Below, one piece after another: positions 19,564 through 61,596 of a DNA stretch of 64,000 bases. Numbering within the stretch: the first letter of the stretch is position 1; every line of letters begins with the position of its first letter. The notes under the pieces are model-generated. The model was not told where the DNA came from. It saw only the letters and a list, made by a program, of their open reading frames with translations, and ran no database searches. Location of the stretch: positions 2,976,001-3,040,000 of the forward strand of contig NC_008541.1 of NCBI RefSeq assembly GCF_000196235.1, read 5' to 3'. The DNA is from Arthrobacter sp. FB24 (GTDB taxonomy: Bacteria; Actinomycetota; Actinomycetes; Actinomycetales; Micrococcaceae). The position numbers and the translations under genes are program-made.

Positions 19564-19572
19564 TGTGGATAA
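19564..19572 (-). promoter_or_regulatory. TTATCCACA box upstream of tadA (DnaA-box-like)
   Basis: Perfect match to the classic 9-mer DnaA box, read 5'-3' toward tadA. It is followed 15 nt further on by CTTGGCC; the same pair of elements occurs upstream of the cpaB-like gene. It lies in the 296-nt gap between tadA and the lysozyme gene. Confidence 0.55.
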
Positions 19573-19606
19573 GCGGGGAATGCCCGCCAAATTTGATTCA
19601 CACTGG

Positions 19607-19647
19607 TAACACCAGAATCACTAGTCGCTCCATGCACAGTGGTGTTA
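19607..19647. promoter_or_regulatory. Inverted repeat upstream of the lysozyme gene
   Basis: Arms TAACACCA and TGGTGTTA separated by 25 nt. The right arm overlaps a candidate -10 box TATGGT (19646-19651). Could be an operator pair; the factor is unknown. Confidence 0.4.
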
Positions 19648-19719
19648 TGGTAGGCGCGTTAAGTCAGACATATCTCACAGTTCAGTTCGTCCTGCGGGAT
19701 TCAGCTGTAGATGCGACCT

Positions 19720-19747
19720 AGTGGCCTGCTCCTGGGAGCAGGCCACT
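19720..19747 (+). promoter_or_regulatory. Strong hairpin in the lysozyme mRNA leader
   Basis: Arms AGTGGCCTGCTCC and GGAGCAGGCCACT are perfectly complementary with a TG centre (12 bp plus a 4-nt loop in practice). The hairpin ends 5 nt before the GGAG ribosome binding site and is not followed by a T-run, so it is not a normal terminator. It may stabilise the transcript or control ribosome access. Confidence 0.55.
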
Positions 19748-19762
19748 ATTCCGGAGCGAAAA

Positions 19763-22252
19763 ATGAAGCGGAATTCAGAGCCCTCCCGACCCAAGCGATG
19801 CAGCCGGCTGGGGTCGCTTTTCCTGGCTGTGGCCCTGTTTGCGGGTCCGGGGCTGGCGCTTCCGGCCAGCGCCGCTGAACCGGAACCGACGGCAACGTCG
19901 ACTGCTTCTGCCGGATCCGCATCCCCGGCATCGGCAACAGCGGCCCCGGTGACGTCGGGCCCTGCTCCGGCGGACGCATCGACGGCCCCTGCTGCCGTTA
20001 CTACCGAATCCGCCGCACCGGTCGGGGCGCCCACCGCTGCTGCGGTTCCGGACCCGAACTCCGACGCCGACCGCGCAGCGATGGCGAAGGCTGTCGGTCC
20101 CGGCGGTGCGGAGATGGGCCAGCGGTCGGCGCGCGTCACAAGCTCCGCCAAACTGTTGCAGGGCAGCAAGTCCCTGACGACGCAGTCACTCGAAACCCAG
20201 GGCACGTGGTCCCCGACGTTCGGCGTGAAGGGACTGGACGTCAGCGCCTACCAGTCAACCGTTGACTGGCTGCAGCAATGGAACATGGGAGCCCGGTTCG
20301 CTTACGTCAAAGCATCCGAAGGCAACTACTACACCAACCCTTCGTACAGCTCCCAGTACAACGGCTCCCGGAACGTCGGAATGATCCGCGGCGCTTACCA
20401 CTTCGCCATCCCGAACTGGTCCTCCGGGGCGGACCAGGCCCGCTACTTTGTGCAGAACGGTGGCGGCTGGACGCCTGACGGATACACCCTGCCTCCCGTC
20501 CTGGACTTCGAATTCAACCCTTACGAGGGTCGGACCATCAACGGGTTCTACTTCGGCAATACGTGCTATGGAATGTCACCGGCACAGCTGACCAGCTGGG
20601 TGCGTGACTTCGGCAACACCATGCTGGCCATGACCGGGCGGCTGCCCATGATTTATACGAACACCTCGTGGTGGAAACTGTGCACCGCGGACGCAGCCGG
20701 TTTCGGCGATTACCCACTGTGGGTCGCCGCTTACCCGAGCTCAGCCACAAACGATGCCGGACCGGTTCCGTCCAGCTGGGACACCTACAGCATGTGGCAG
20801 TACAGCAGCACAGGTCCTTATGCCGGGGATTCGAATGTCTGGAACGGCGACTACGCCTCGCTGGCGCTGTTCACGGGCACACGCCCCCAGGGCTCTTTCG
20901 ATTCGGCAGGCATTGAGCGCACCGGCACTACCACCTCACTGAGGATCCGAGGCTGGGCTTTGGACCGGGCATTGCCCGGCGCTACCACCGAGGTACACGC
21001 CTATGTCACGGCACCAAACGGCACGAAGACCCTCTATAAGTTTCCGGCAACAACCTACCGGCCCGACGTCAACAAGGTCCTGGGATTGGGCGACTATCAC
21101 GGATTCGACAACCAAATTCGTATCAACATTTCCGGAAACTACACCATCTGCGTCTTCGCCATCGGCAAGTTCATCAACCCCGGCATAGGCTGCAAGTCGC
21201 TCACGGTGGACGGAGCCGAACCGCCGATCGGCAGCCTGGACGAAGTTTCCGAACAGCGGTCTGCGGACAAGGAATCACTGAAAGTACGCGGTTGGGCCGT
21301 CGACATGAGCCGGCCGTCCGTCACCGCCGAAGTCCACGCCTACCTCTACGGTCCGGACGGAAGCAGCACGCTCTACAAGATCGCGGCCAACACCTCGCGA
21401 CCGGACGTGGACCGGATATATTCCGTCGGCTCCAACCACGGCTTCGAAACCAGCATCGACATCAAGAAAGCCGGAAACTACAAGCTCTGCGTGTATGCGA
21501 TCGGCCTGTACCTCCATTCGGAACTTGGCTGCAGGTCCGTCAACATTGCACCAGGCACGACGCCCGTAGGCACCCTGGATTCGGTGAGCGTCAAGAAGAC
21601 CAGCACTCAGGCGTCGCTGAACGTTCGTGGGTGGGCCATCGACTACGGAAATACTTCCGCCCAGATCCGGGTACACGCCTATGTCCTGGCACCCGACGGC
21701 ACTACCACCGTTCACGAAATCATCGCGTCAAAGCCCCGCCCTGACCTAAACCGGGTGCTCGGCGTGCCGGGCGACCACGGCTATGAAACTGACCTTGCGA
21801 TCAGCCAGCCGGGCAAATACCGAGTGTGCACCTACGCCATCGCCCTCAGCCCGGTCTCCCCCGGCAATCCCCTCCTCGGCTGCACATATATAGACGCCGG
21901 ATTCAGAGGCAGCCCCATCGGCTACCTCGACTCTGTGAAAATCGAATCCGCGAACGGCGTTGCCTCGGTGATTGCCGCCGGCTGGACTGTGGATCAAGAC
22001 GTCCCTAGCGAATCCCTCAGCGTCCACACTAACGTGACGGCACCCGACGGTAGCCTCACGAGCTTTGCCGTTACGGCAAACCAGCCCCGTCCAGACGTCA
22101 ATCAAATGCTGAAGATTAGCGGCGACCACGGTTATACGTCAAAGAAAACCATCTCCCTGCGCGGAACATACAAAGTCTGCACCTATGGAATTGCGGCATC
22201 ACCATTTACAGCGGGAAACTCGCTGTTGGGGTGTCAGTCCGTAACGTACTGA
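19763..22252 (+). CDS. Secreted GH25 lysozyme with four C-terminal repeats
   Basis: An 829-residue exported muramidase. The signal peptide has a basic start, the hydrophobic LGSLFLAVALFAGPGLAL and PASAAEP. A Ser/Thr/Ala/Pro-rich linker runs to about residue 150. The GH25 domain (about 155-375) has GLDVSAYQ, AYVKASEG, IRGAYHFA and the catalytic LDFEFNP. Four tandem repeats of about 110 residues follow (from about 377, 487, 599 and 717). Each contains a LRIRGWALD-like strand, HAY/HTN with APDG, RPDVN or RPDLN, HGF/HGY, and YxxCxYAI with a second Cys; they are probably cell-wall-binding beta domains. I chose the ATG after GGAGCGAAAA over an upstream GTG, because the signal peptide then begins properly. 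Confidence 0.9.
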   Translation: MKRNSEPSRPKRCSRLGSLFLAVALFAGPGLALPASAAEPEPTATSTASAGSASPASATAAPVTSGPAPADASTAPAAVTTESAAPVGAPTAAAVPDPNSDADRAAMAKAVGPGGAEMGQRSARVTSSAKLLQGSKSLTTQSLETQGTWSPTFGVKGLDVSAYQSTVDWLQQWNMGARFAYVKASEGNYYTNPSYSSQYNGSRNVGMIRGAYHFAIPNWSSGADQARYFVQNGGGWTPDGYTLPPVLDFEFNPYEGRTINGFYFGNTCYGMSPAQLTSWVRDFGNTMLAMTGRLPMIYTNTSWWKLCTADAAGFGDYPLWVAAYPSSATNDAGPVPSSWDTYSMWQYSSTGPYAGDSNVWNGDYASLALFTGTRPQGSFDSAGIERTGTTTSLRIRGWALDRALPGATTEVHAYVTAPNGTKTLYKFPATTYRPDVNKVLGLGDYHGFDNQIRINISGNYTICVFAIGKFINPGIGCKSLTVDGAEPPIGSLDEVSEQRSADKESLKVRGWAVDMSRPSVTAEVHAYLYGPDGSSTLYKIAANTSRPDVDRIYSVGSNHGFETSIDIKKAGNYKLCVYAIGLYLHSELGCRSVNIAPGTTPVGTLDSVSVKKTSTQASLNVRGWAIDYGNTSAQIRVHAYVLAPDGTTTVHEIIASKPRPDLNRVLGVPGDHGYETDLAISQPGKYRVCTYAIALSPVSPGNPLLGCTYIDAGFRGSPIGYLDSVKIESANGVASVIAAGWTVDQDVPSESLSVHTNVTAPDGSLTSFAVTANQPRPDVNQMLKISGDHGYTSKKTISLRGTYKVCTYGIAASPFTAGNSLLGCQSVTY

Positions 22253-22415
22253 CGCTCCACGAGAGATCGACTGTGACGACCTGCGCTTTCCGTCAGGCCC
22301 GACCAGCGGACATCGAGCGGAAAGCCAGTGCTCGCCGCAGTTGTTTTCCGCACCACCGACGACGCTGGTGCCCGGCGGGGGAACGGACGGCGCGGAACGT
22401 GTCTGGCAAATTCGG

Positions 22416-22434
22416 AAAAAACGGCTGGAGCCGT
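22416..22434 (-). terminator. Intrinsic terminator of the minus-strand glycan operon
   Basis: On the minus strand ACGGC-TCCA-GCCGT is followed by TTTTT. It lies about 50 nt after the flippase stop. The rest of the 230-nt gap between the lysozyme and flippase genes shows nothing else. Confidence 0.6.
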
Positions 22435-22482
22435 CCCGTTCCTCGTAATACCCGCGCCCCTCGAAAGCCGCGTCCAGCAGGC

Positions 22483-23763
22483 TTACAGAGCGTGGGAACC
22501 TGAGGCCTTTTCCTTGTTTCGCAAGGACAAGAGATGACGGATTGCTGCCGGGCTAATGATAATCAACAGAGCCACTTCGCTCAGCATGAATCCGGCCGCG
22601 ACGCCGTCGGGGCCGGCAGCCAGGCCCAAAAAGTACATGGCAAAAACGCCTGTTATGGCACCGATAGCGGTACCAGCGAGAACGAACCGGGTTTTCAAAG
22701 CCGGGACCAGCAGGTTTCTGATCAATGGCGTAGAGCAGGAGACTGCAAGAAAGGCGCCCCCATAAAACCACATCGATGAAGCTGTGGCTTTGACAGCCGA
22801 ACCAAAGAGCAGCGAAGTTGCAAACTCGCCAAAGATGCCGAGTGCCACCATGCCAACAACACCCAGAACGGCATGGGCAACAATTGCGCCTACGTGCCGC
22901 CTTGTGGCGTTCGGTGCAGTTCGATCCAGTGTCCATGCTTGGAGCGTGTTTCCAAGCGTCGTGACGGTGATCAGTCCGAATCTATAAAGTTTGTCAGCAG
23001 AAGCTATAATTCCTGCCTCGGCGGCAGTCCCAGTGGCCCCGGCCAGGGGAACCGGGGCTGAGATGTAGACGCCACCCAGTCCGTCAACCAGGGCCACTCC
23101 GAGCCTTTTTCTGAGTCCTGCCAACGTTTCGCTCCAGTTCCATCCCCTGAATATTCTTGGATGTCCGAGGCTGCGCTGAACGGCAACGAGACCCGCCACC
23201 GTTGCAAGGATCCACAACATCGGATAAGACCACAGGGACTGCGTCAAGAATATGACCAGCGCGGTGAGCAACGTGGCAGCGAGCCTTGGCAGCATGTCGA
23301 ACCAAGCAATGCTCTTCGGGTCGCCCGCACCGACAAAAAACCAGTTAGGAGTCAACCCGCCAAGGCTGAAGGCAATTGCCATAGCCATGGTGAATATTTC
23401 GAAGCCTGGTCCCGCCAAGAAACCGGAAGTCACAGCGCAGACGGGAACAACTACGGCCGCCAGCAAGAGGCGCTCCCGTAGCGATTCGCCCCACAGTTGA
23501 CGTCGATCCGACTGAGACTCTGCCGTGGCCACGAGCGCGGGACCAAGGACGTTCCAGCCGTAACTAATGACAATGCTGCCGAAGGTTCCCACCGCTTGGC
23601 CCACGGAGAGGCTGTACCACCCGTCAACGCCGCCAACGCGTGCTGCGATCGGAAGCAGGAACAACGGGGCCACCGTTCCCACAAGCGGGATTACCGTGAA
23701 TCCAGCCAGCCTCTTTAGGAGCGGAGACTTCTGTAATCCCTTGTTCCTGGATTTCGAAGTCAC
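22483..23763 (-). CDS. Polysaccharide flippase-like membrane protein
   Basis: A 426-residue protein with about 12 hydrophobic segments and the N-terminal layout of MATE/PST-type lipid-linked oligosaccharide flippases (Wzx-like: FTVIPLVGTVAPLFLLPIAARV at the start). It likely moves undecaprenyl-linked sugar units across the membrane. It overlaps the stop of the upstream glycosyltransferase by one base. The DNA of this gene and the next is visibly more A+T-rich than its flanks, suggesting later acquisition. The locus also has a Wzm/Wzt exporter, so two export routes coexist. Confidence 0.8.
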   Translation of the reverse strand: MTSKSRNKGLQKSPLLKRLAGFTVIPLVGTVAPLFLLPIAARVGGVDGWYSLSVGQAVGTFGSIVISYGWNVLGPALVATAESQSDRRQLWGESLRERLLLAAVVVPVCAVTSGFLAGPGFEIFTMAMAIAFSLGGLTPNWFFVGAGDPKSIAWFDMLPRLAATLLTALVIFLTQSLWSYPMLWILATVAGLVAVQRSLGHPRIFRGWNWSETLAGLRKRLGVALVDGLGGVYISAPVPLAGATGTAAEAGIIASADKLYRFGLITVTTLGNTLQAWTLDRTAPNATRRHVGAIVAHAVLGVVGMVALGIFGEFATSLLFGSAVKATASSMWFYGGAFLAVSCSTPLIRNLLVPALKTRFVLAGTAIGAITGVFAMYFLGLAAGPDGVAAGFMLSEVALLIIISPAAIRHLLSLRNKEKASGSHAL

Positions 23764-24881
23764 TATCGGCCCAGAATAGCGGCTTCGAAGCGCGAGGCCG
23801 CTTTGGCTGGAGTGTTTTCACGCATTGCTGCCATGCCTCGGGTGGCCAAGGAGTCGCACAATTCTACGTCCTCCATGAGCCGCTCCACATTGAGTTGAAG
23901 GGCTACAGCGTCCCCCACGGCCGAGAAGAGCGCTGTTCCGTCGGCATAAGCCCTGACGCCTCCTATGTCGGTTGACACCACGGCACAACCGCTGGACATG
24001 GCCTCAGCGGGCGGAAGATGCCATCCTTCTGCGTCGCTCGCGCAAAGGTAAATCTTCGACGATTGATATGAGTCACGAATTTCTGATTTGGAAGGGTTCT
24101 TAACATGTTTGACATGTGCGCCCAGTGATTCGGGCCGATCACAGGTGCCAAACGTTACTGCACGAAAATTTGGGTATTTTTCGCCCAAAGCGTTAAGTAC
24201 CTTAACGATGAGATCCGCCCTCTTCCACGGCACATCCGACACCATGGCGCAAACGTCGTTAACGCGGACAGAAGCTCTCGGACCGGATGGGAATTCGACA
24301 GGGTCGATTCCGTTGGGAATAAGTTTGCAGTCCTCGCCGAGTTGATGCATATGCTTTTCCAGCCATGGGGCGATAACTATCTTGGTAAGCGGGAGTTTCC
24401 AAGTTGCATCTATGAAATCCGGGGTGGCCGACCAGTCTTCGTAGTGCTGGATAAAATAAGAACCAGGAATCTTTGTTTTCTCGACGACTGAAGCGACCAA
24501 TGTTGCCGTCTGCACTTCCGTTGCCACGATATAGTCTGTGGGGGGAACAAGACTCGGAGTGAGGAACGGCAAGGTCAGGCATTTGATGCGTTCATCAAGA
24601 GCAAACCAATCAGGTTTTCTATGGGGTCGCAGGCCTGAAAGGATTGAAGCGATTGGTCGACGGAAGTCCTTCACCTTATGCTGCGCACCTTTTAGGAGCA
24701 ACGCATGCAAGAGAACGACATCGTGACCCTGCCCGGCCAAAAAATTTGCATATGAATAAACTACTTTGTAGCCGCCAATTGGATACTTACTGAAACCAGG
24801 CAGAACTATGGTTATTTTCGACCGTTGATTATGACTGACCGAAGGCATAGCCGATTTTGAATCCTGCTTCTTGCTAAACAC
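23763..24881 (-). CDS. Glycosyltransferase family 4
   Basis: A 372-residue GT-B enzyme. The N-terminal domain has VLPGFSKYPIGGYKVVYSYA (Gly-rich acceptor loop). The C-terminal domain has CAMVSDVPWKRADL and YLCASDAEGWHLPPAEAMSS, where the family's E-x7-E-like motif reads EGWHLPPAE. It transfers a sugar from a nucleotide donor to a cell-surface glycan; sugar unknown. Base composition is lower in GC than in the surrounding rml genes. No strong Shine-Dalgarno is visible before the ATG. Confidence 0.85.
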   Translation of the reverse strand: MFSKKQDSKSAMPSVSHNQRSKITIVLPGFSKYPIGGYKVVYSYANFLAGQGHDVVLLHALLLKGAQHKVKDFRRPIASILSGLRPHRKPDWFALDERIKCLTLPFLTPSLVPPTDYIVATEVQTATLVASVVEKTKIPGSYFIQHYEDWSATPDFIDATWKLPLTKIVIAPWLEKHMHQLGEDCKLIPNGIDPVEFPSGPRASVRVNDVCAMVSDVPWKRADLIVKVLNALGEKYPNFRAVTFGTCDRPESLGAHVKHVKNPSKSEIRDSYQSSKIYLCASDAEGWHLPPAEAMSSGCAVVSTDIGGVRAYADGTALFSAVGDAVALQLNVERLMEDVELCDSLATRGMAAMRENTPAKAASRFEAAILGR

Positions 24882-24900
24882 ATTACTCCCGAGACACTAA

Positions 24901-25935
24901 TTAAGAGACTTGGCTGGAACGGGCTTTGGAGGACCTTCTGCGACTCGTTTCGCGTCCCTTGGTGAAGAGTTCAACCGGAACGCCGGCCACAAACTCGACG
25001 AAGCACGGCAAGGCAACGTCGCCGCTGCGCAAGCCGGAAACGAGTGCTCGCGAGGTGGGCAGCCAGCCGTGGCCGGTTTCGAAGGCGGCCACCCCGCCTT
25101 CCAAACCAGGAGTGCCGGCAGGTACGCGTTCCCGCAGGGCGTCAGCCATGACCCGGCGCCACCCGAAGCTCAGGTCGTTGGCGGTCCGGAGCATGGCGAG
25201 CGGGCTGCTGCTTCCCTGAAATTTTCTGGACAGTGCGGTCACATGCTCAAAGGACTTGACGATGCTCTTCCTGCCACCGACCTCACCGAGGACGTTGCCG
25301 CCGTGCTGGACATAGTCCTGGACAACGTCGTCAACTACGAGCGCACCGCCGGTGGCTTCGGCGCAGACGGCCAGCCAATGGTCGTGTACCTGCGAGATCG
25401 TGTTCAAACGGGGAAAGGGCAGCGCCAGGTCCAGAAGTTCCCGCCGGAAGACGCACAGGCTTCCGGTCACCTGGTTCTGGGCAAGGAGGGCATCCAGATC
25501 AACGTTCTTCCGTTGCGTTGATTCAGTCACCACCTCATTGCCGGGAAGCCGGACAACGCGTGCCTGTCCGGCTACCAGACTGACGTTGTTAAGGTGCGGC
25601 AGCAGCACCTCAAGCTTCGACGGATACCAGGAGTCGTCCTGGTCCGACAACGCGATCCACGCCGCTTCGGCCGGCACGTGCTGAAGGACACGTTCAAAGT
25701 TGCCGTAGAAACCCAGCCTCTCCTCGAAGCCGAGTACCCGAAACCGCTCGTCACCGCCGAGTTCACGGTCCACGAAGTCACGTATTTCGGCGAAGCTCCC
25801 GTCAGCCGTAATGAGGCATTGGAACTGCGAGTGCGTCTGGTTCTGGATGGACCGAAGCTGGGTCCTGAACAGCTCCCAGTCCGGCTGGTACGCCGCGAGG
25901 GCGACCACACCGAACGTCGTCGAATCGAAGCGCAT
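24901..25935 (-). CDS. Glycosyltransferase family 2 (rhamnosyltransferase-like)
   Basis: A 344-residue GT-A enzyme with LAAYQPDWELFRTQLRSIQN at the start, the metal/nucleotide motif ALSDQDDSWYP (about residue 96) and VHDHWLAVCA near residue 183. It belongs to the WaaE/RfbF-like group that often uses dTDP-rhamnose, and the dTDP-rhamnose genes lie next door. The C-terminus is very basic (RRRSSKARSSQ). It is separated by 11 nt from the rmlCD stop and probably co-transcribed. Confidence 0.85.
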   Translation of the reverse strand: MRFDSTTFGVVALAAYQPDWELFRTQLRSIQNQTHSQFQCLITADGSFAEIRDFVDRELGGDERFRVLGFEERLGFYGNFERVLQHVPAEAAWIALSDQDDSWYPSKLEVLLPHLNNVSLVAGQARVVRLPGNEVVTESTQRKNVDLDALLAQNQVTGSLCVFRRELLDLALPFPRLNTISQVHDHWLAVCAEATGGALVVDDVVQDYVQHGGNVLGEVGGRKSIVKSFEHVTALSRKFQGSSSPLAMLRTANDLSFGWRRVMADALRERVPAGTPGLEGGVAAFETGHGWLPTSRALVSGLRSGDVALPCFVEFVAGVPVELFTKGRETSRRRSSKARSSQVS

Positions 25936-25946
25936 GGATCGGACCG

Positions 25947-27371
25947 CTATTCCGCGGCGGCCCGCCGGCCGAGGTACGTTTCCAGAACGTCCCGGGAAGC
26001 CCGCGGTTTGAAGCCCGAGTTCTTGAGCTTGGTCAGATCCAGCACGCTGTTCAGCGGCCGGGGAGCGGCAGCCTTGCCCTTGAAGTATTCCTCAGTGCTC
26101 ACACCGGTGACGGCAGTCCTCGGCTGTCCAGAGAGCTCGTAGACATCAGCGGCGATGTCGGCCCACGACTGCGGTTCGCCGTCGTTGCTCAGGTTGTAGG
26201 TGCCGTAGTCCGCGCCGGAGTCCAGGAGGTGCTGGATGCCTGCCGCGATGTCTTCGGTGAAGCTGAGCCGGCCGATCTGGTCGTTGACCACGGACGGCTC
26301 GATGCCGCGGCCGGCGAGGGAAGCCATGGTCCGCACGAAGTTGTTGCCCTCACCGATGACCCAGCTGGTCCGCACGATGTAGTGGCGGGGAACCACGCTG
26401 ACGACGGCGTCGCCGGCGGCCTTGGTCTGCCCGTACACACCCAGCGGGGTGAAGGGTTCAGTTTCGTCGTGGCTCTCGCGGACACCGTCAAAGACATAGT
26501 CGGAGGAAACGTGCACCAGGGTGAGGCCATGTTCGACGGCGGTGCGGGCCAGCCTTGCGACCGCGGCAACGTTGACAGCCCAGGCTGCTGCCCGGCCTTC
26601 CGCGGTTTCCGCGGTGTCGACCGCGGTGTATGCGGCGGCATTGATGATTGTCGAGTAGTTCTTCCAGTTCCGCTCCGTGAAGGACGCTTCGCTGCCCAGA
26701 TCAAAGCCGGACCGGCCGGCGAACTCAACTGTTGCGTCGCCGTCGTACAGTTCCCGCAGCGCCTTGCCCAGCTGTCCGTCGGCACCTACTACCAGGATCT
26801 TCTTGGCCGGCATCGGCACAACGTCCGCGAGGCGGGGGTGCGCCTTGTCCTTGTCGGACAGTTCTGCTTCCTCCAGCGGCACCGGCCAGCTGATCGCCGC
26901 CGTCTCGTCCGCGAGGTTCAGGAACGTGTATTGGCCCTGGGCGTCCGCCGACCAGTGGTCGTTGACCAGGTAGGTGTAGGCCGTGTTGTCTTCCAGGGTC
27001 TGAAAGGCGTTGCCCACGCCGCGCGGAATGAAGATCGCCTGGCTGGGGTCCAGTTCAGCGGTGAAGACGGCCCCGAAGGACGGACCTTCGCGCAGGTCCA
27101 CCCAGGCACCGAAGATTTTACCGGTGGCCACCGAGATGAACTTGTCCCACGGTTCGGCGTGGATACCGCGGGTGGTGCCGGCCTTCTCGTTGAACGAAAT
27201 GTTGTTCTGCACCGGACGGAAGTCCGGCAGCCCCAGGGCCACCATCTTCTCCCGCTGCCAGTTTTCCTTGAACCAGCCACGGTTATCACCGTGGACCGGG
27301 AGGTCGTAGAGGACGACGCCGGGGATCGGCGTTTCGTGCGCGGTCAGCTTCTTGGAGAACTCGATCGACAT
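25947..27371 (-). CDS. rmlCD: Fused dTDP-4-dehydrorhamnose 3,5-epimerase / reductase (RmlC-RmlD)
   Basis: A 474-residue bifunctional enzyme for the last two steps of dTDP-L-rhamnose synthesis. Residues about 1-190 are the RmlC cupin (HGDNRGWFKENWQ, TTRGIHAEPWDKF with the active-site His, IPRGVGNAFQ). Residues about 200-474 are the RmlD short-chain dehydrogenase (VVGADGQLGKAL, SSDYVFDG, catalytic YGQTKAAGD). The fusion occurs in some Micrococcales; other organisms use two separate proteins. It follows rmlB by 3 nt in the same operon. Confidence 0.93.
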   Translation of the reverse strand: MSIEFSKKLTAHETPIPGVVLYDLPVHGDNRGWFKENWQREKMVALGLPDFRPVQNNISFNEKAGTTRGIHAEPWDKFISVATGKIFGAWVDLREGPSFGAVFTAELDPSQAIFIPRGVGNAFQTLEDNTAYTYLVNDHWSADAQGQYTFLNLADETAAISWPVPLEEAELSDKDKAHPRLADVVPMPAKKILVVGADGQLGKALRELYDGDATVEFAGRSGFDLGSEASFTERNWKNYSTIINAAAYTAVDTAETAEGRAAAWAVNVAAVARLARTAVEHGLTLVHVSSDYVFDGVRESHDETEPFTPLGVYGQTKAAGDAVVSVVPRHYIVRTSWVIGEGNNFVRTMASLAGRGIEPSVVNDQIGRLSFTEDIAAGIQHLLDSGADYGTYNLSNDGEPQSWADIAADVYELSGQPRTAVTGVSTEEYFKGKAAAPRPLNSVLDLTKLKNSGFKPRASRDVLETYLGRRAAAE

Positions 27372-27374
27372 CGT

Positions 27375-28373
<999 letters not shown>

Positions 28374-29337: not shown

Positions 29338-29344
29338 GGACACC

Positions 29345-44681: not shown

Positions 44682-52128
<7,447 letters not shown>

Positions 52129-52780: not shown

Positions 52781-53029
52781 ATGGATTGGCGTAACCGCGC
52801 AGCGTGCCTCGACAAGGACCCGGAGCTTTTCTTCCCAGTAGGAAACACCGGGCCTGCTCTCCTCCAGATCGAGGAAGCGAAAAGTGTGTGCCGCCGCTGC
52901 CCTGTGGTGGACACCTGCCTCCAGTGGGCACTCGAATCGGGACAGGACGCCGGCGTCTGGGGCGGAATGAGCGAAGACGAGCGCCGGGCCCTCAAGCGCC
53001 GCGCTGCACGCGCCCGTCGGGCTTCCTGA
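52781..53029 (+). CDS. whiB1: WhiB-family Fe-S regulator, WhiB1 type
   Basis: An 82-residue iron-sulfur transcription factor. Four Cys ligands are visible: AACLD (about residue 9), then CRRCPVVDTC (about 37-46), the Wbl pattern C-x(n)-C-x2-C-x5-C. The motif GVWGGMSEDERRALKRR and a basic tail (RRAARARRAS) form the DNA-binding part. Length and sequence fit WhiB1, an essential NO-sensitive regulator in mycobacteria. Convergent with pdtaS, the order I recall for Mycobacterium Rv3219-Rv3220c. The ribosome site (GGAG) is rather distant, 12-13 nt from ATG. Its transcript ends at a 20-bp terminator. Confidence 0.93.
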   Translation: MDWRNRAACLDKDPELFFPVGNTGPALLQIEEAKSVCRRCPVVDTCLQWALESGQDAGVWGGMSEDERRALKRRAARARRAS

Positions 53030-53100: not shown

Positions 53101-53112
53101 AAGGGTCTTGCC

Positions 53113-54582
53113 TCATCGATTCTGCAGGTTTAAGACAATCTGCACGGCAGTGCCCCCGCCCTCACGGGGTTTCCACTGGATGCTCCCGCCGAGCTCGCTC
53201 GTGACAAGGGTCCGGACGATCTGCAATCCCAGGCCTTCGACGTGCGGTGTCTCCGGCAGGCCGACTCCGTCATCGGCAACAGTAACTGTCAGGAACTCGT
53301 CTCCGTCATCACCCTCCGAGCGGTCGGCCAGCAGCCAGACAGTTCCGGTCCTTCCCTCCAAGCCATGTTCGACGGCGTTCGTCACCAGCTCGTTGATCAC
53401 CAGGGCAAGCGGGGTGGCGAAATCGCTGGGGAGCTCACCGAACAGCCCGGATCTTGCTGTCTTGACCTGCTGCGAGGGTGAAGCGACTTCAGCCGAAAGA
53501 CGGAACTGGCGGCCAATCAGCTCATCGAAGTCGACACTTTGCGTCAGCCCCTGGGAAAGCGTCTCGTGGACAAGGGCAATCGTTGCGACTCGTCGCATGG
53601 CCTGCTCGAGGCCCTGCTTGGCCTCATCACTGACCATCCGGCGCGACTGCATCCGCAACAGCGCCGCCACGGTCTGCAGGTTGTTTTTCACCCGGTGATG
53701 GATCTCGCGGATGGTGGCGTCCTTGGTGACGAGTTCCATTTCCCGGCGCCGAAGTTCAGAAACGTCACGGCAGAGCACCAGAGCCCCGAACCGCTGCTGC
53801 TCATCCCGCAACGGAATGGCCCGAAGCGACAGGCTGACTCCCCGGGATTCGATTTCGCTGCGCCACGGCATCCTGCCGGTCACGACGAGCGGCAGGGTTT
53901 CGTCCACCATGCGACGGTCCCGCAGCAATCCTGCTGTGACTTCTGCCAGGGACCTGCCTTCGAGGGATTCACCGTCACCAAGGCGCCGGAACGCCGAGAC
54001 CCCGTTAGGGCTGGCATATTGCACGATTCCGTCCGCGTCGAGCCGAATCAGGCCGTCGCCCACCCGCGGGGCGCCGCGGCGGGATCCGGTCGGCGAAGCA
54101 AAGTCGGGCCACAGGCCGAGGGTACCCATCCGCAGCAGGTCGTAAGCGCACTGCCGGTAGGTCAGTTCGAGCCTTGACGGCATCCGTGAACTGGACAAGT
54201 CCATGTGCGTGGTCACCACAGCGAGCGTCCGGCCGTTTCTGACCATGGGAACTGCTTCAACCCGGAGAGCCATGTCGCTGCTCCAGTTGGTCTCGCTGGA
54301 GCGCTCAATGGTCCGGCTGCTCCAGGCCTTGTCAACCAAGGGCTGCAGATCCGACCTGATCCCCTCCCCCACGAAGTCGGTGTGGAACACCGTATGCGTG
54401 GTGGAGGGGCGGACGTGGGCCAGAGCCACGTAACCAAACTCAGGATGCGGAAACCACAAGGCAAGGTCAGCGAATGCGAGGTCGGCGACCATCTGCCAGT
54501 CGCCCACCAGGAGGTGCAGCCACTCGGCATCCCCCGGCCCGAAATCAGCATGTTCCCTGATGGGGTCCGTAAAGATTGCCAC
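53113..54582 (-). CDS. pdtaS: Sensor histidine kinase, PdtaS type
   Basis: A 489-residue soluble kinase. The N-terminal GAF-like sensor domain (about 1-150) is followed by a PAS domain (about 165-280: GDGLIRLDADGIVQYASPNG) and a HisKA_2 dimerisation domain with the phospho-acceptor in REIHHRVKNNLQTVAALLR (about 290). The catalytic ATPase domain has LVINELVTNAVEHGL and VADDGVGLPE. No transmembrane helix is seen. PdtaS phosphorylates PdtaR, an RNA-binding ANTAR regulator that is not in this window. GTG start with GGAGG 4 nt upstream. Confidence 0.92.
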   Translation of the reverse strand: MAIFTDPIREHADFGPGDAEWLHLLVGDWQMVADLAFADLALWFPHPEFGYVALAHVRPSTTHTVFHTDFVGEGIRSDLQPLVDKAWSSRTIERSSETNWSSDMALRVEAVPMVRNGRTLAVVTTHMDLSSSRMPSRLELTYRQCAYDLLRMGTLGLWPDFASPTGSRRGAPRVGDGLIRLDADGIVQYASPNGVSAFRRLGDGESLEGRSLAEVTAGLLRDRRMVDETLPLVVTGRMPWRSEIESRGVSLSLRAIPLRDEQQRFGALVLCRDVSELRRREMELVTKDATIREIHHRVKNNLQTVAALLRMQSRRMVSDEAKQGLEQAMRRVATIALVHETLSQGLTQSVDFDELIGRQFRLSAEVASPSQQVKTARSGLFGELPSDFATPLALVINELVTNAVEHGLEGRTGTVWLLADRSEGDDGDEFLTVTVADDGVGLPETPHVEGLGLQIVRTLVTSELGGSIQWKPREGGGTAVQIVLNLQNR

Positions 54583-54616
54583 TACACCTCCAGTTTCGAC
54601 GCTTGGAACGGGGTCC

Positions 54617-57600
54617 CTAGCGTCGGACGATTGACCTCAAGAGCCTCAATGCTACCGACAGTGACGCCATATCGTCCGCTTCGAGTGAGTTGACCTCGTC
54701 AAACATGCTCCTGGCACGGTTGAGCTGCTCGGCATTCAGGCCTTCCCAGTCCAGTACCCGGTCCTCCGCGGGGGCTCCGGCCGACGTGGACTCAAGGACC
54801 GACGTCGTAATGTCCGAAATCGTGGAGTAAAGGTCGTCGCGCAAGGCGGCGCGGGCAAGTGCCTGCCAGCGGTCCCGCCTCGGAAGCTTGGTGATCCTTT
54901 CCAGGAGGGAGTCCACATGGAACCGGTCAAACACCGTGTAGTACACGTGCGCGATGCCCTCCACCGGCTCCGGACTGATGTGGGCAATCTTGGCGATGTC
55001 GAGCAGCACGAAGCTTTCGAACAGCTCGGCCCAGCGGTGGGCAAGATCCTCCGGAAGTTCCCAGCTTCGGGCCTTTTCCAGCCACGCGGCGACGCGGGCA
55101 CGGTCCTCACCACGCAGGTAATCGAGGAGACGGGCACGCATCGGATCCATCAGCGGCTTGAATTCGTCCACGATTTCCGAAATCGGCCGGGAACCGCTGC
55201 CCTGGCCCAGCACCCACCGGACCGCGCGGTCCAGAAGCCGCCGAATGTCCAAGTGGACGGTGCTCCAGTGCTCTGTCGGGAAGGAGGCCGGCAGTTCGTT
55301 GAGCTCCGCCACCATGACGTCCAGCTCGTAGATCTCGCGGAGCGCAACGAATGCTTTGGCTACGGCCGCTTCATTGGCGGACGTCTCCTCAATGGTGCGG
55401 AACGCAAACGTAATGCCACCGAGGTTGATCATGTCGTTGGCCACGACAGTGGCGATGATCTCCCGACGCAGCGGATGGGTATCGAGCTCGGCGTCGAACC
55501 TTTCCCGAAGCTGCTTGGGGAAGTACGCACGCAGGGTCTGCCTGAACCACGGATCGTCCGCGAGATCGCTCTCACGCAGTGCCGTTGCGAGTTCGATCTT
55601 CGCGTAAGCCGCGAGTACCGAAAGCTCGGGCGAGGTCAGCCCTTGCCCCTGTTCCAGGCGTTCCCGGAGCGTCGCCGTTGTCGGTAGGGCTTCAAGCTCT
55701 CGTTTGAGGTCAGCGGATTTCTCCAGCCAGTCCATGAGGCGCTCATAGCTGGGGCTCCACTCCGCAACACGGATGCGGTCGTTGAGAAGCAGGATGTTCT
55801 GGTCGATGTTATCTTCCAGGACGAGCCGCCCGACTTCATCCGTCATCGACGCCAGGAAGTCCGCCCTCTCCGCAGCGTCGAGCTTTCCGGCGGCAACCAT
55901 GCGGTCAACGAAGATCTTGATGTTCACCTCGTGGTCCGAGCAGTCGACGCCGGCCGAGTTGTCGATGGCGTCGGTGTTCAGGATGACTCCCTGAAGCGCT
56001 GCTTCAATACGTCCGCGCTGAGTCATGCCCAGGTTTCCGCCTTCTCCGACCACTTTGACGCGAAGGTCGCGGCCGTCGACGCGGATGGCGTCGTTCGCTT
56101 TGTCTCCCACCTCGGCATGCGTTTCGGTACTTGCCTTCACGTATGTTCCGATGCCGCCGTTGTACAGCAGGTCCGCGGGCGCCAGGAGAATGGCTCGTAG
56201 GAGTTCCGGCGGGCTCAGTTCGGTGGTGCCGTCCGGCAGTCCGAGGGCGACGCGCACCTGATCAGAGACCGGAATGGACTTTGCCTGCCGTCCGAAGACG
56301 CCGCCGCCTTCGCTGATGAGGGATTTGTCGTAATCGTCCCAGGAGGACCGGGGCAGGTCGAACAGCCTCTGCCGTTCTGCGTAGGACGTGGCCTCATCCG
56401 GATTCGGATCCAGGAAGATGTGGCGGTGGTCGAATGCCGCCAGCAGCCGGATGTGCTGCGAAAGCAGCATTCCATTGCCAAAGACGTCCCCGGACATATC
56501 GCCCACGCCCACCACTGTGAACGGCTCAGACTGTGTATCCAGGTCCAGTTCGCTGAAGTGGCGCTTGACCGATTCCCACGCGCCCCGCGCCGTGATCCCC
56601 ATGGCTTTGTGGTCGTAGCCCACGGAGCCGCCGGAGGCGAACGCATCGCCAAGCCAAAAGCCGTACTCGGCCGAGAGACCGTTAGCGATGTCCGAAAATG
56701 TTGCGGTTCCCTTGTCGGCAGCGACGACGAGGTAGTTGTCGTTGTCGTCATGGCGGACGACGTCGGCCGGCGGAACCACAGCTTCGCCCTCCGGAGTGGT
56801 GATCAGGTTGTCCGTAAGGTCCAGAAGCCCGCGGATGAACGTCTTGTAGCTTTCCACGCCCTCCGCCATCCACGCCGTCCGGTCGACGGCAGGGTCCGGG
56901 AGTTGCTTGGCGAAGAATCCGCCCTTGGCGCCGGTGGGAACGATGACGGCATTCTTGACGGTCTGTGCTTTAACAAGGCCAAGGATTTCGGTGCGGAAGT
57001 CCTCGCGCCGGTCGGACCAGCGCAGCCCGCCACGGGCCACCTTGCCGAAGCGCAGGTGCACGCCCTCCACCCTGGGCGAGTACACCCAGATTTCATACAT
57101 CGGGCGCGGGAAGGCCAGGCCGTCGATCGCGGCCGGATTGAGTTTGAAGCTTAGGTACGGCTTCTGCTGGTAGAAGTTCGTTCGGAGTGTGGCCTCGATG
57201 AGGTTCGCAAACGTCCGGAGAACACGGTCGGCGTCCAACGTGGCGACTTGTTCGATGGCGGCTGCCAGTTCCGCGCGGACGGTCGTCTGGCGCTGCGTCC
57301 GGACATCGTCCTCGACGGCGGGGTCAAAGCGCGCCGCGAACAGGGCGCTCAGGGAGCGGGTCACGTCCGGATTGGCCAGCAGCGTGTCGGCAATGAATCC
57401 AAACGAGTTCGTGTTGCCCATCTGGCGCATGTATTTCGCATAAGCGCGGAGGACCACGATCTGGCGCCAGTGCATGCCCTCGCGCAGGACCAGCCGGTCG
57501 AAACTGTCCGACTCGACATCACCGGAAACGGCGGCGCCGAAAGCGTCCGCCAACAACTGGCCGGTCGCGAGGGGGGCCACCCCGGCGGGGTATTTGAGGC

Positions 57601-59470
57601 CGAGGTCGTACAGGAAGAAATCCCGCTTGTCGGCCGTCTCGATCTCGAAAGGCCGTTCATCGAGCACTTCAAGACCAAGATTATGGAAGTACGGCAGAAT
57701 CTGGCTAAGGCTCTTCGGCTCAAGCATGTAGAGCTTGACCCGGGCGTCCTCTTCGAGCGTGGCTCCGGCCCCCTCCGGCAGGTACACGTGGACCCCGGGC
57801 CGTTCCTGCGTGCCCTTTTCAGCCAGCTCAGCAGCCGACCCGTACTTCTCGAACCGCGCGATGTCCGTAAGAGCGTCCTCAACCTCGTAGTCAACGCGGT
57901 AGCTGGCGGGGAAGGCCTCGGCCCAGGCCGAGGCAAGCCCTTTGTTGTCGTCATCGGTGGCGCTGGCACGCAGCACTTCGGTGATGCCTTCGCTCCACGA
58001 ACGCGCAGCCCGGACGAGCCTCTTCTCAAGCTCCTCAACATTGACGTCGCTGACGTCGGCATCCTTGGGCAACCGGATACGGAAAAACAACCGGGCCAAC
58101 GCGGACTCGGTCATCCTGGCTTCGTAGTCAATGGAGACTGCGTGGAAGGTCTCGCGGAGTTCCTGCTCAATGCGGAGGCGGACGTTGGTCGTGTAGCGGT
58201 CGCGGGGAAGATACACCAGTGCGGACATGAACCGGCCGTAGATATCAGGCCTCAGGAACAGCCGGGTGCGCCGCCGTTCCTGAAGCCGCTGGATCCCGGT
58301 TGCCGTCGCGGCAAGGTCCGAAATCTCGATCTGGAACAGCTCGTCGCGGGGGTAAGTTTCAAGAATGCCCAGCAAGTCCTTGCCGGAGTGCGAGTGCGGC
58401 GGGAACCCGGCACTGCGGAGGACAGCTTCTACCTTCTCGCGGACAATCGGAATGTTCCTGACGGAGCCAGCGTAGGCGCTGGTGGCGAAAAGGCCGATGA
58501 ACCGCTGCTCGCCGTTGACGTTTCCGGCGGCGTCAAAGCTCTTGACTCCGATGTAGTCCAGGTATGCCGGCCGGTGCACTGTGGACCGGGAATTGGCTTT
58601 GGTAATGACCAGGGCGCGCTTTTCGCGCGCCTTCTTGCGGCCCGCGACCGTGAGGTGCTGGACGTGGTGTCCGTCGGCGCCGCTGCGCAGCAGCCCGAGG
58701 CCGCTCTCCTCCCGCAGTTCCAGCACGTCCTCGCCGGACTCGGTGACGAGGTCGTATTCGCGGTACCCAAGGAAGGTGAAGTTGCCGTCGTCCAGCCACC
58801 GAAGGAGGTCCTGGGCCTGGCGCAATTCCTCGATCTGCGAGGGGTTGGCTACGTTGTCCAGGTCCTGGGCGATCTGAAGCGCCTTGTTGCGCATCTTCGG
58901 CCAGTCTTCCACAGCGGCCCGGACATCCCCGAGGACGCGTTCGATGCCTTCGATGAGCCGCACATGCGCTTCCTCGCTGGCAAGTCCGATTTCGACAGCG
59001 ATCCACGACTCCATATGCGAGGCGTTATCCCCCTGGGCAATAAGGTGTGACAGGCTCGGCATGGCTGCAGTGTCGCCGCTGGAAATGCCGATGCTGGACG
59101 GGACCCTGTCCACTTTTGTGAGTCGAGCGGTTTCCCGGTTACGCGTCACAACAAAAAGCGGGTGGAGTACGAGATGGATGGCCGAGTTCTGGCGAACGAG
59201 CTCCGCGTTTACGGAGTCCACCAGGAACGGCATATCGTCCGTGACGATGTACACCACGCTGCAATCGGGTTCGTCCACAATCCGGACGTTGGCCGTGCCG
59301 GGGACGCGGACAGCAGCCACTTCTCGGTGGGTTTCGGCGCGGGCGGCGAGGACATCGGGTGAATACGCCCGGGAGTCCTCCTCCGCAAGGTGCTCGTAGT
59401 AGTCTCCGAAGTACCCCTCACGGGCTCCGAGCAAAACGGACTGATCCTCCACGCTGGACCCAGACGACAT
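54617..59470 (-). CDS. gdh: NAD-dependent glutamate dehydrogenase, large (180 kDa) type
   Basis: A 1617-residue enzyme of the GDH2 large class, which oxidatively deaminates glutamate to 2-oxoglutarate in the catabolic direction. The N-terminal half holds regulatory ACT-like regions (DCSVVYIVTDDMPFLVDSVN at about 70). The catalytic centre is around residue 800-870 (VARGGLRWSDRREDFRTE; PTGAKGGFFAKQLPDP). The NAD fold has VGVGDMSGDVFGNGML (about 985). I start at the ATG 9 nt after GGAGG; a TTG 6 nt upstream is also possible. It takes up about 4.9 kb as a single gene. Confidence 0.95.
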   Translation of the reverse strand: MSSGSSVEDQSVLLGAREGYFGDYYEHLAEEDSRAYSPDVLAARAETHREVAAVRVPGTANVRIVDEPDCSVVYIVTDDMPFLVDSVNAELVRQNSAIHLVLHPLFVVTRNRETARLTKVDRVPSSIGISSGDTAAMPSLSHLIAQGDNASHMESWIAVEIGLASEEAHVRLIEGIERVLGDVRAAVEDWPKMRNKALQIAQDLDNVANPSQIEELRQAQDLLRWLDDGNFTFLGYREYDLVTESGEDVLELREESGLGLLRSGADGHHVQHLTVAGRKKAREKRALVITKANSRSTVHRPAYLDYIGVKSFDAAGNVNGEQRFIGLFATSAYAGSVRNIPIVREKVEAVLRSAGFPPHSHSGKDLLGILETYPRDELFQIEISDLAATATGIQRLQERRRTRLFLRPDIYGRFMSALVYLPRDRYTTNVRLRIEQELRETFHAVSIDYEARMTESALARLFFRIRLPKDADVSDVNVEELEKRLVRAARSWSEGITEVLRASATDDDNKGLASAWAEAFPASYRVDYEVEDALTDIARFEKYGSAAELAEKGTQERPGVHVYLPEGAGATLEEDARVKLYMLEPKSLSQILPYFHNLGLEVLDERPFEIETADKRDFFLYDLGLKYPAGVAPLATGQLLADAFGAAVSGDVESDSFDRLVLREGMHWRQIVVLRAYAKYMRQMGNTNSFGFIADTLLANPDVTRSLSALFAARFDPAVEDDVRTQRQTTVRAELAAAIEQVATLDADRVLRTFANLIEATLRTNFYQQKPYLSFKLNPAAIDGLAFPRPMYEIWVYSPRVEGVHLRFGKVARGGLRWSDRREDFRTEILGLVKAQTVKNAVIVPTGAKGGFFAKQLPDPAVDRTAWMAEGVESYKTFIRGLLDLTDNLITTPEGEAVVPPADVVRHDDNDNYLVVAADKGTATFSDIANGLSAEYGFWLGDAFASGGSVGYDHKAMGITARGAWESVKRHFSELDLDTQSEPFTVVGVGDMSGDVFGNGMLLSQHIRLLAAFDHRHIFLDPNPDEATSYAERQRLFDLPRSSWDDYDKSLISEGGGVFGRQAKSIPVSDQVRVALGLPDGTTELSPPELLRAILLAPADLLYNGGIGTYVKASTETHAEVGDKANDAIRVDGRDLRVKVVGEGGNLGMTQRGRIEAALQGVILNTDAIDNSAGVDCSDHEVNIKIFVDRMVAAGKLDAAERADFLASMTDEVGRLVLEDNIDQNILLLNDRIRVAEWSPSYERLMDWLEKSADLKRELEALPTTATLRERLEQGQGLTSPELSVLAAYAKIELATALRESDLADDPWFRQTLRAYFPKQLRERFDAELDTHPLRREIIATVVANDMINLGGITFAFRTIEETSANEAAVAKAFVALREIYELDVMVAELNELPASFPTEHWSTVHLDIRRLLDRAVRWVLGQGSGSRPISEIVDEFKPLMDPMRARLLDYLRGEDRARVAAWLEKARSWELPEDLAHRWAELFESFVLLDIAKIAHISPEPVEGIAHVYYTVFDRFHVDSLLERITKLPRRDRWQALARAALRDDLYSTISDITTSVLESTSAGAPAEDRVLDWEGLNAEQLNRARSMFDEVNSLEADDMASLSVALRLLRSIVRR

Positions 59471-59527
59471 CGACAAACGCCTCCATCACAAGTTCATAGT
59501 TGCCTCTTTGCAACCCTTATGGCGAGC

Positions 59528-60838
59528 CTAACCCTTTAGAAGGCGCTTCGCTGTGGAAGAAAAGACAGAGGATCGGCGTTTTTGCTGGGCGGGTGCACAA
59601 ACGATTTCTGCGATCGCTTGCCGGAGTCCTGATTCGGGTGCGGCCTCGAGCAGAAGGTTGCCGGACAAGAGTGCCGTGTCGCAGGCGGCGATGTCTGATG
59701 GAAGGAAAGCGGAAATCCCTTCCGCCGGCCCGTACCTTTCCCACGCGTCCCGCAGCTGGCGCTCGGGGAAGCGTCCGGCGGCGGAAGCGCGGACTTTGTT
59801 CAGAAGCACCTGCGGCGACGCCTGGGGAACCGCAGCTTCAAGCTCAGAAAGGCCCCGGACCAGCCGCGGCACACCAATGGAGTCGGCTGACCCCACAGCG
59901 TAAACGGTGTCCGCGAGTTCAAGGCTCCGAAGCGTGGCGGCATTCCTGCGCGGGGCCATGGTGTCAAAACTGAGTTCCTCGTCTGCCTCGAGGCAGAATC
60001 CTGTGTCCACAACCGTATAGTCCGCTACTTCACGGGCTTTCTCGAAGACAACGCCAAGGGCGGATGCGCGCAACTCCGTCCAGCGATCCGCGCGTGTGAT
60101 CCCGGTCAGAACCTGCAGCGTACCCGTCTTCAGGGCGACTGGGGTTGCGACCTTCAGCAGGGCGTCGGCATCCAGTTGGCCCAGATCGGCCAACCGGCAG
60201 GCCTGCGCCAACCCCGCAGATTCGTCCAGCAGTCCCAGGACCCCCGCAACACTCGCTCCATAGCTGTCAGCGTCGACCAGGAGGACTGAGTTCCCCGCAG
60301 CGGCCAATTCGCCGGCCATGTTGGCTGCCACCAGCGTCCGGCCCGGTGACCCCGCCGGACCCCAGACGCTGATGATCCGGCCTGCACCGGACGGCTCTGC
60401 CTGGAAATCATCTCCCGCCCCCGGCAGGGTCCGGATGGCGGCACCAGGGTCAGCGAAACCGCGGTCATCCGCCTGAAACGAGCCGGGAGGGGCCCACTGG
60501 GCAACTGCGCCCGAGATCCTGCCTGCCAGTGCCGCCGAGTCCACGCCCGCCGGCGCAACCGTAACGCCGATCGCTGTCAGGCGAGCCGCCTCCGATGCGC
60601 TGTCGGTCAACGCAACGATCACGACGCCCACGGCAGTGAGCCGGTCAACAAGCGAAGCCGTCAGTTCGTCGCTTCCTTCGGCGACGACGGCCGCCCGTGC
60701 AAGTCCGCTCTGGCAGGCGGCCAGAAGCTCAGTCAGTTCCGAGCACCTCCTCACGACGGTGACCGGTCCATGAAGGCGCTCCAAGCCACCGACCAGGTCC
60801 TCGCGGGATTGCCCGACCGTGACTACCGGAATGCTCAT
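59528..60838 (-). CDS. TadZ/CpaE-like ParA-family protein
   Basis: A 436-residue protein with a receiver-like N-terminal domain (about 1-130) and a MinD/ParA-like domain (about 155-436: IISVWGPAGSPGRTLVAANMAG; VLLVDADSYGASVAGVLGLL; YTVVDTGFCLE). This is the layout of CpaE/TadZ, which place the Tad pilus machine. The P-loop is deviant: GPAGSPGRT in place of KGGxGKT, so both the signature Lys and the P-loop Lys are lost and ATP hydrolysis is doubtful. It overlaps the cpaB-like gene by four bases. The main tad operon lies about 40 kb away. Confidence 0.8.
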   Translation of the reverse strand: MSIPVVTVGQSREDLVGGLERLHGPVTVVRRCSELTELLAACQSGLARAAVVAEGSDELTASLVDRLTAVGVVIVALTDSASEAARLTAIGVTVAPAGVDSAALAGRISGAVAQWAPPGSFQADDRGFADPGAAIRTLPGAGDDFQAEPSGAGRIISVWGPAGSPGRTLVAANMAGELAAAGNSVLLVDADSYGASVAGVLGLLDESAGLAQACRLADLGQLDADALLKVATPVALKTGTLQVLTGITRADRWTELRASALGVVFEKAREVADYTVVDTGFCLEADEELSFDTMAPRRNAATLRSLELADTVYAVGSADSIGVPRLVRGLSELEAAVPQASPQVLLNKVRASAAGRFPERQLRDAWERYGPAEGISAFLPSDIAACDTALLSGNLLLEAAPESGLRQAIAEIVCAPAQQKRRSSVFSSTAKRLLKG

Positions 60839-61479
60839 GAGGTTCCACCGCCCGGGTTCCAGACGACCGATATCTTGGCCTTGTTCGCCTGCGCTCCCAA
60901 CAGCCTCGGCATCTGCTCGTCAGTGACGAGCACCATGACCACGGTAGACCGGGAAGACCCCAGCGCCGTCGAGCCGGGAGTGACCTCGGCGATCTCGGCG
61001 CCGGGAAGCAGTAGCTTCGGCTCGCTGAACCCGTTTCGCGCATCCGGAAGCGCCACCCAGGCGTCCACCCGCGAGCCGGCAGCCACTTGCTCCGGCAGGG
61101 CTTCGTCGATGGTGATTGCGACCGGCTTGCGGTTTAGTGCATCGGGCTTGCCGAGGCTGTCCCGCGGGACCAACTGGTCCGGGCCGATCCGCTGTACCGC
61201 AACCATGCCGTCGGGAAGCCCGGCTTCCGCAGTGACGTAGTGCCCTTCGACGTCACCGAGCCTGACTTTTACCCGGTTGACGTTCTCAGCCGTGAGTCTC
61301 TCCCCCACGGCGATCGGCCCTTTTGCCGCATAGACCTCGGTGGTCTGGTCGGCCGCGCCCACCAACGACACAACACCGGCCACGGACGCCAGAACCAGCA
61401 GGAGTCCGAGCAGGAGCCGGGGATCCTTCCAGGAAGGCTTCTTCAGCCTGACTGCCGTCGTCGTCGTGCTTGCGCTCAC
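60835..61479 (-). CDS. CpaB/RcpC-like SAF-domain protein
   Basis: A 214-residue protein with one N-terminal helix (LLLGLLLVLASVAGVVSLV). A SAF domain follows (about residues 50-125: VYAAKGPIAVGERLTAENVN ... VPRDSLG), then a C-terminal domain. CpaB/RcpC proteins belong to Flp/Tad pilus systems; in Gram-positives they act at the outer membrane face without a secretin. GTG start. Coupled to the TadZ-like gene. A TTATCCACA box lies 108 nt upstream in the same orientation as the one upstream of tadA. Confidence 0.82.
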   Translation of the reverse strand: MSASTTTTAVRLKKPSWKDPRLLLGLLLVLASVAGVVSLVGAADQTTEVYAAKGPIAVGERLTAENVNRVKVRLGDVEGHYVTAEAGLPDGMVAVQRIGPDQLVPRDSLGKPDALNRKPVAITIDEALPEQVAAGSRVDAWVALPDARNGFSEPKLLLPGAEIAEVTPGSTALGSSRSTVVMVLVTDEQMPRLLGAQANKAKISVVWNPGGGTS

Positions 61480-61587
61480 GTACTGCTCCCCCCATCGTTG
61501 CCGGCCGGGCTGGTTCGTGCGCCGGACTCCCTCATTGTTACGGCAAAACGGCCGGATCGAAAGTCATAAGGCCAAGCAACGCCAAAC

Positions 61588-61596
61588 TGTGGATAA
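61588..61596 (-). promoter_or_regulatory. TTATCCACA box upstream of the cpaB-like gene
   Basis: Perfect DnaA-box 9-mer on the minus strand. It extends to TTATCCACAG, with CTTGGCC 10 nt further downstream, as upstream of tadA (where the gap is 14-15 nt). It is also only 37 nt from the divergent bldC start, so either gene could be the target. Confidence 0.55.

Follow-up and report, generated by a model that had tools for sequence, protein, structure and literature searches.

A conserved DnaA-box-like site at a fixed position before natural-competence genes of Arthrobacter and its relatives

A short, non-palindromic DNA site, whose best form is TTATCCACA and whose core is TCCACA, stands before several unlinked competence genes of the Arthrobacter sp. 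FB24 genome, namely tadA, an essC-like gene, cpaB, comEA, comF, recA and rpsF-ssb. Three copies of this box lie in the stretch of DNA analysed here (64 kb of contig NC_008541.1, positions 2,976,001 to 3,040,000 of the forward strand; hereafter the window, with positions counted from its first letter). We propose that the box is probably the activator site that switches on an actinobacterial natural-competence regulon. The proposal is carried by a fixed distance of 47–49 nt between the box and a putative −10 element, a feature that is absent from the preliminary description of this stretch and was found in the present analysis. That description had suggested an undescribed regulon of surface machines. 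One shared, conserved site in the same orientation is indeed present, and a literature search, with most subscription papers outside its reach, found no report of this site or regulon. The common theme, on the other hand, is best read as natural competence (the tad pilus, comEA-comEC, comF, recA, ssb and the EssC-like ATPase) and not as surface machines in general. Taken together, comEA-comEC, comF, tad, cpaB-tadZ, recA and ssb make up the gene content typical of a competence regulon.

In Micrococcus luteus, homologues of the typical competence master regulators were not identified (PMC6667448), and according to a paper of January 2026 the upstream competence regulator or cascade of high-GC Gram-positives remains to be identified (PMC12849477). 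The M. luteus loci include tadA1 (Mlut_07500) beside the FtsK/SpoIIIE gene Mlut_07490, and Mlut_14650 (cpaB) and Mlut_14640 (tadZ), from which the excisionase-like Mlut_14660 diverges. Mutants with a com-down phenotype carried hits in tadA1 and in a TadG-like gene, a point change in Mlut_07490 lowered transformation at least 1000-fold, deletion of the cpaB-like Mlut_14650 lowered it 10000-fold, and a change in Mlut_14660 brought back a com-up phenotype (PMC8467076). The window holds the same kinds of gene, a correspondence drawn from family and neighbourhood and not from comparison with M. luteus sequences; in this sense the essC-like gene is taken as the counterpart of Mlut_07490. In G028, a genome from another family of the order, the essC-like gene adjoins tadA among the matches listed.

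The boxes of the window and the genes that they face are the following.

19564..19572, minus strand: TTATCCACA box of the tadA promoter, with 49 nt from its 5′ end to the −10 TAGCTT (letters checked)
19542..19548, minus strand: CTTGGCC, putative −35-like element of the tadA promoter, with CTTG about 17 nt before the −10
19518..19523, minus strand: TAGCTT, putative −10 of tadA, assigned by eye and pattern
18243..19478, minus strand: tadA, a TadA/CpaF-type ATPase (Pfam T2SSE; best NCBIfam match TIGR03819, under its cut-off)
16451..18243, minus strand: tadB and tadC (T2SSF domains in 17389–18243 and 16451–17392)
14718..16133, minus strand: TadE/TadG-like genes downstream of tadA on the same strand (TadE in 15663–16133, Tad in 14718–15623)
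47984..47992, plus strand: TTATCCACA(TAC) box in the promoter of the essC-like gene; a putative −10 TAGCTT follows at 48033–48038, at a distance of 49 nt (letters checked)
48076..52128, plus strand: essC-like FtsK/SpoIIIE ATPase with an FHA domain (FtsK_SpoIIIE and FHA matches; best NCBIfam match EssC, far below its cut-off)
61588..61596, minus strand: TTATCCACA box between cpaB and a divergent HTH_17 gene
61534..61540, minus strand: TAACAAT, putative −10 of cpaB (pattern NA[CG]AAT)
60835..61479, minus strand: cpaB/rcpC-like gene with a SAF domain, like Mlut_14650
59528..60838, minus strand: tadZ/cpaE-like gene of MinD/ParA type, like Mlut_14640 (CbiA/ParA, below cut-off)
61634..61849, plus strand: small HTH_17 gene for an excisionase-type DNA-binding protein, divergent from cpaB, like Mlut_14660 (HTH_17 1.8e-12; TIGR01764)

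As the preliminary description had it, these three boxes are the only exact copies of TTATCCACA in the window, all are intergenic, and each is oriented toward the tadA, cpaB-like or essC-like gene, at 97 nt from the start of tadA (ATG 19466), 83 nt from that of the essC-like gene (ATG 48076) and 108 nt from that of cpaB (GTG 61479), the start codons having been checked. The open reading frame extended to a GTG at 46690–48468, which runs over the essC box, in our judgement reflects a start set too far upstream for the divergent galactopyranose mutase gene. The essC-like protein scores 270 bits against TIGR03928 (EssC), the cut-off being 778, and does not reach the curated EssC/EccC threshold. 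Dinucleotide shuffles of the window (n=100) contained a mean of 0.07 boxes and a maximum of one, which upholds the view that three are unlikely by chance, and the box together with its spaced −10 occurred twice compared with 0.02 times per shuffle. It could be said that a few boxes in a single window amount to nothing more than three 9-mers that happen to occur in GC-rich DNA; the conservation described below refutes this, as do the shuffle counts, and its probability is negligible.

Conservation of the box in orthologous promoters, a test set beforehand, was borne out within the genus. Specifically, TTNTCCACA occurs in 21/22 tadA promoters (with ATATCCACA in 1/22), in 25/25 cpaB promoters (23 of them with TTATCCACA) and in 20/23 essC-like promoters, where the core TCCACA is found in 22 and TTATCCACA in 14. 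These tables cover 22 of the 25 genus genomes for tadA (G012, G014 and G018, in which the gene start is in a separate piece, being excluded) and 23 of the 25 for the essC-like gene (G005 and G012 were left out). In G012 and G018, box and CTTG nevertheless stand about 100 nt before the separate piece with the tadA start. The comEA-comEC genes, whose ComEA and ComEC domains were found in this genome, have a variant box, mostly [C/G]TTTCCACATAG; among 19 genus genomes TCCACA is present in all and TTNTCCACA in only two. comF lies 8.5 kb past the window with a box upstream (best match TIGR00201, below its cut-off), and in relatives (n=20) its upstream region contains TCCACA in 18 and TTNTCCACA in 15. 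Tandem boxes are seen in some comEA and comF promoters.

It is the spacing that joins these promoters. The box starts 47–49 nt before a TANNNT −10 in 22/22 tadA, 21/23 essC-like and 19/19 comEA promoters of the genus. All 25 cpaB promoters have the pattern NA[CG]AAT, a second choice after an earlier pattern that fitted 7/25, beginning 57–60 nt from the start of the box (57 nt in 16, 58 in four, 59 in three and 60 in two), which is one helical turn beyond the distance at the other three genes. The start codon of comEA follows about 6 bases after the −10 hexamer, and we infer that its message is probably leaderless. The preliminary description had also proposed CTTGGCC as a second element shared by tadA and cpaB; this is the case in the present genome only, since among relatives CTTG occurs no more than 25 nt from the box in 22/22 tadA and in 3/25 cpaB promoters. 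A second shared element was accordingly rejected: the CTTG of tadA, which follows the box, would be a −35 element, and that of cpaB a coincidence. A CTTG-anchored pattern search in relatives met the tadA promoter repeatedly, most other matches being single.

Conservation at tadA extends well beyond the genus. Among 80 named tadA loci of Arthrobacter, Pseudarthrobacter, Paenarthrobacter and Sinomonas, 58 have the exact box, 19 one mismatch and three more, compared with 12 exact boxes and 13 with one mismatch when 1600 windows were drawn at random from these loci. The family-wide set of 70 genomes provided 61 of 63 matched genomes for tadA (30 genera; G042 and G098 were without the gene start) and 59 of 69 for comEA. 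TCCACA stands 47–49 nt before TANNNT at tadA in 48/61 genomes from 26 genera. When hexamers were permuted (n=59), the two highest counts at tadA (18 and 7) belonged to the same box one base off and the next was 3; at comEA they were 13 and 8, again the same box one base off, and the next was 2. Moreover, TTNTCCACA at tadA is found in the sense orientation in 52/61 genomes (29/30 genera), antisense in 15/61 (8 genera) and with reversed letters in 1/61. In the 48 spaced tadA sites position 1 is T in 45, position 2 is T in 48 and position 3 is A in 27 and G in 15, positions 4–9 being fixed by choice with TCCACA as the search key. The form TT(A/G)TCCACA is present at tadA in 45/61 and at comEA in 5/59 family genomes, and the spacing of 48 nt is retained by G028 at both comEA and tadA and by G029 at comEA.

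The module TCCACA-N38-40-TAGSBT was counted 112 times in 10 genus genomes, with several places recurring, and its backward reading 48 times; the corresponding counts in three genomes that do not belong to the genus were 5 and 4. In this genome it marks further genes, all on contig C4.

1619407: recA (downstream gene read in this genome; similar upstream sequence in 9 other genomes)
4637494: rpsF-ssb (downstream gene also read in relatives, L330 and L334)
3222176: a second rcpC/cpaB (also read in relatives L326, L329 and L332)
847240: a WXG100 gene (also read in one relative, L335)
4552230: a T7SS_signal-like gene (weak, below cut-off)

That the WXG100 gene and, weakly, the T7SS_signal-like gene share the promoter module of the essC-like gene hints that a type VII-like module may be co-regulated with DNA uptake.

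Because its distance to the −10 is fixed, the box can be read as an activator site at about −60. What is found in the sequence is the class I pattern, a fixed distance that changes by whole turns only, with −10 elements that are putative. Relative to the transcription start the box would lie at about −60 to −52, a location used by class I activators, which assist RNA polymerase where the −35 is poor, and the −10 downstream of the box appears to be a weak TANNNT. At cpaB the box would have moved upstream by one helical turn and so kept to the same face of the DNA. An activator present or active under nutrient limitation might then cause the uptake pilus, the membrane channel, the recombination proteins and the EssC-like ATPase to be made together.

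Several observations weigh against this reading. The −10 elements were assigned by eye and by pattern, and the 47–49 nt window was picked on genus sequences and then applied to a family set that includes four genus genomes. At comEA the spaced box is found in only 21/59 family genomes (11 genera), with positions 1–3 free, and elsewhere in the order, outside the family, it occurs in 2/9 comEA regions (G028 and G029) and 1/5 tadA regions (G028). At comF a spaced T/CANNNT occurs in only 8/20. Of the five cpaB regions taken from distant genomes, three (G025, G028 and G037) have the box oriented toward the HTH_17 gene, G029 has one each way and G036 has none. The module also precedes genes with no evident competence role, namely DUF2461, Phd-type and two Hpt-like genes and one of no family. 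In M. luteus, the Mlut_07490 change alone did not repress comEA/EC, and another change in Mlut_14650 left transformation unaffected (PMC8467076). Three further points lie in the letters of the box, and these speak in particular against DnaA as its binder: the comEA boxes of the genus start with C or G in 17/19 and are degenerate at positions 1–3; one other genus has GAATCCACA; and the extension TCCACATA[GC], whose 3′ TA(G/C) lies outside the DnaA box, is present at comEA in 18/19, at the essC-like gene in 17/23 and at comF in 11/20.

The actinobacterial DnaA box has the form TT(A/G)TCCACA. Because the conserved unit at tadA is this same form, and no position just outside the nine bases is conserved among the 48 spaced sites, DnaA is the likeliest single binder. 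As the activator, it would act from single boxes at about −60, some of those at comEA being weak, with the level or the ATP form of DnaA setting competence; to this version of the activator reading we give slightly less than an even chance. The spaced tadA box is the DnaA 9-mer, position 3 being A or G in 42/48 over 26 genera, the site is single and asymmetric, the same 9-mer is clustered at the origin of this genome, recA and ssb belong to the set, and DnaA is a known activator and repressor with the 9-mer consensus TTATCCACA (PMC8203912). Set against this are the comEA variants and the extension, and the literature search gave no report tying DnaA boxes to competence promoters. For a variant-by-variant comparison with origin boxes (A or G at position 3), dnaA was found at only 5 of the 20 contig starts examined. 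More broadly, we tentatively suggest that DnaA may act directly as the master activator that governs natural competence across the Micrococcaceae, through single boxes near −60 at the promoters for the uptake pilus, ComEA/ComEC, ComF, RecA, SSB and EssC-like/WXG100 proteins. If this is true, DNA uptake and a type VII-like ATPase module would be coupled to replication state.

A genome-wide count, which the preliminary description had proposed as a test, bears on the part that replication might play. The count is small, with 30 sites for TTATCCACA in 5.07 Mb (contig C4, 4.70 Mb) compared with 4 for the backward-read pattern. Fourteen of the 30 are at most 70 kb from the contig ends, the region of the origin, in which a 474-codon frame taken to be dnaA is followed by a gene that by eye is dnaN-like; this is the placement expected of DnaA boxes. 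Four of the 16 non-origin sites precede tadA, the essC-like gene, cpaB and comF, together within 51 kb. The count is less clear in its remainder, as the other 12 are elsewhere in the genome and several are inside coding sequence. The core set leaves out the site at 567042, which by eye looks to be in coding sequence, and those that precede two Hpt-like genes. The 14 sites near the origin, and the discussion of DnaA titration on the chromosome in PMC12371093, would suit boxes that serve titration or replication timing and affect transcription incidentally. Such sites need neither the fixed −10 distance nor the prevailing orientation seen at tadA over 26 genera, and we regard this explanation as improbable.

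A dedicated, undescribed competence activator that recognises a longer DnaA-like site, TTNTCCACATAG, would account for the extension at comEA, the essC-like gene and comF, a feature that is absent from tadA (0/22) and cpaB (0/25). The candidates are the HTH_17 protein encoded beside the cpaB box and a two-component regulator. We know of no DNA motif for the HTH_17 group, and a solved structural relative of the protein was looked for and none found. Its gene is divergent from cpaB, and changes in the M. luteus counterpart raise comEA/EC expression (PMC8467076). We consider such a factor a real possibility, to be held at rather less than an even chance.

The activator reading, whichever protein binds, matters for competence control in high-GC Gram-positives, where a shared site at a fixed position makes the question of the regulator directly testable. 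The site can serve as DNA bait for the regulator, it predicts the regulon and its promoters, and DnaA can be named as a candidate. It also places the EssC-like ATPase and a WXG100 protein in one gene set with DNA uptake.

Some observations concern individual loci. tadA is split into two or three pieces in at least 6 of 24 genus relatives (G006, G007, G012, G014, G018 and G024), the pieces lying 8–30 kb apart with short overlaps and, in G014, on two contigs. In five further family genomes (G042, G052, G061, G095 and G098) the gene was partly matched, for which contig ends are a possible cause. The split copies look like repeated insertion of mobile elements into a competence gene; the copy in the window is whole. 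A small WhiB-like gene (by eye; 52781–53029, plus strand) has the essC-like gene on one side and a PdtaS-type histidine kinase gene (53113–54582) on the other, and a gene for a large NAD-glutamate dehydrogenase (54617–59476, minus strand) lies directly 3′ of the tadZ-like gene. The recA promoter (1619407, L317) carries, besides the box, a AATGTCGGTGG element directly 5′ of the −10, which we take to resemble a PafBC-dependent promoter. PafBC control of the whole set was considered and rejected, as TGTC(A/G) 10–19 nt before the −10 occurs in 0/22 tadA, 0/21 essC-like, 0/19 comEA and 0/25 cpaB promoters, recA having one (for background on PafBC promoters see PMC11804915). In G046, at least seven near-identical promoters of the form TCCACA...AATGTC(A/G)GTG...TAGCGT are found on five contigs.

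Competence regulons elsewhere are governed by ComK through the K-box (Bacillus subtilis), by ComX/SigX through the cin-box (streptococci) and by CRP-S/Sxy (gamma-proteobacteria), and rpsF-ssb and recA are ComK targets too. Like these regulons, the present one would have a single type of site before the uptake pilus, comEA-comEC, comF, recA and ssb; the sequence and geometry of their sites are unlike those of the box described here. The likeness to a DnaA regulon lies in the canonical 9-mer at tadA and in single, asymmetric sites, DnaA being able to activate (PMC8203912), and what differs is that the box stands at a fixed, class I-like distance in front of genes for competence and that some members of the set carry the TA(G/C) extension; the word competence does not occur in that review. 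Finally, the transformation loci of M. luteus (tad-1 with Mlut_07490/07500, Mlut_14650/14640/14660 and comEA-comEC) match in kind the genes driven by the three promoters of the window, and whereas a common promoter site was not seen in the available parts of PMC8467076, PMC4322843, PMC6667448 and PMC12849477, a conserved one is present here.

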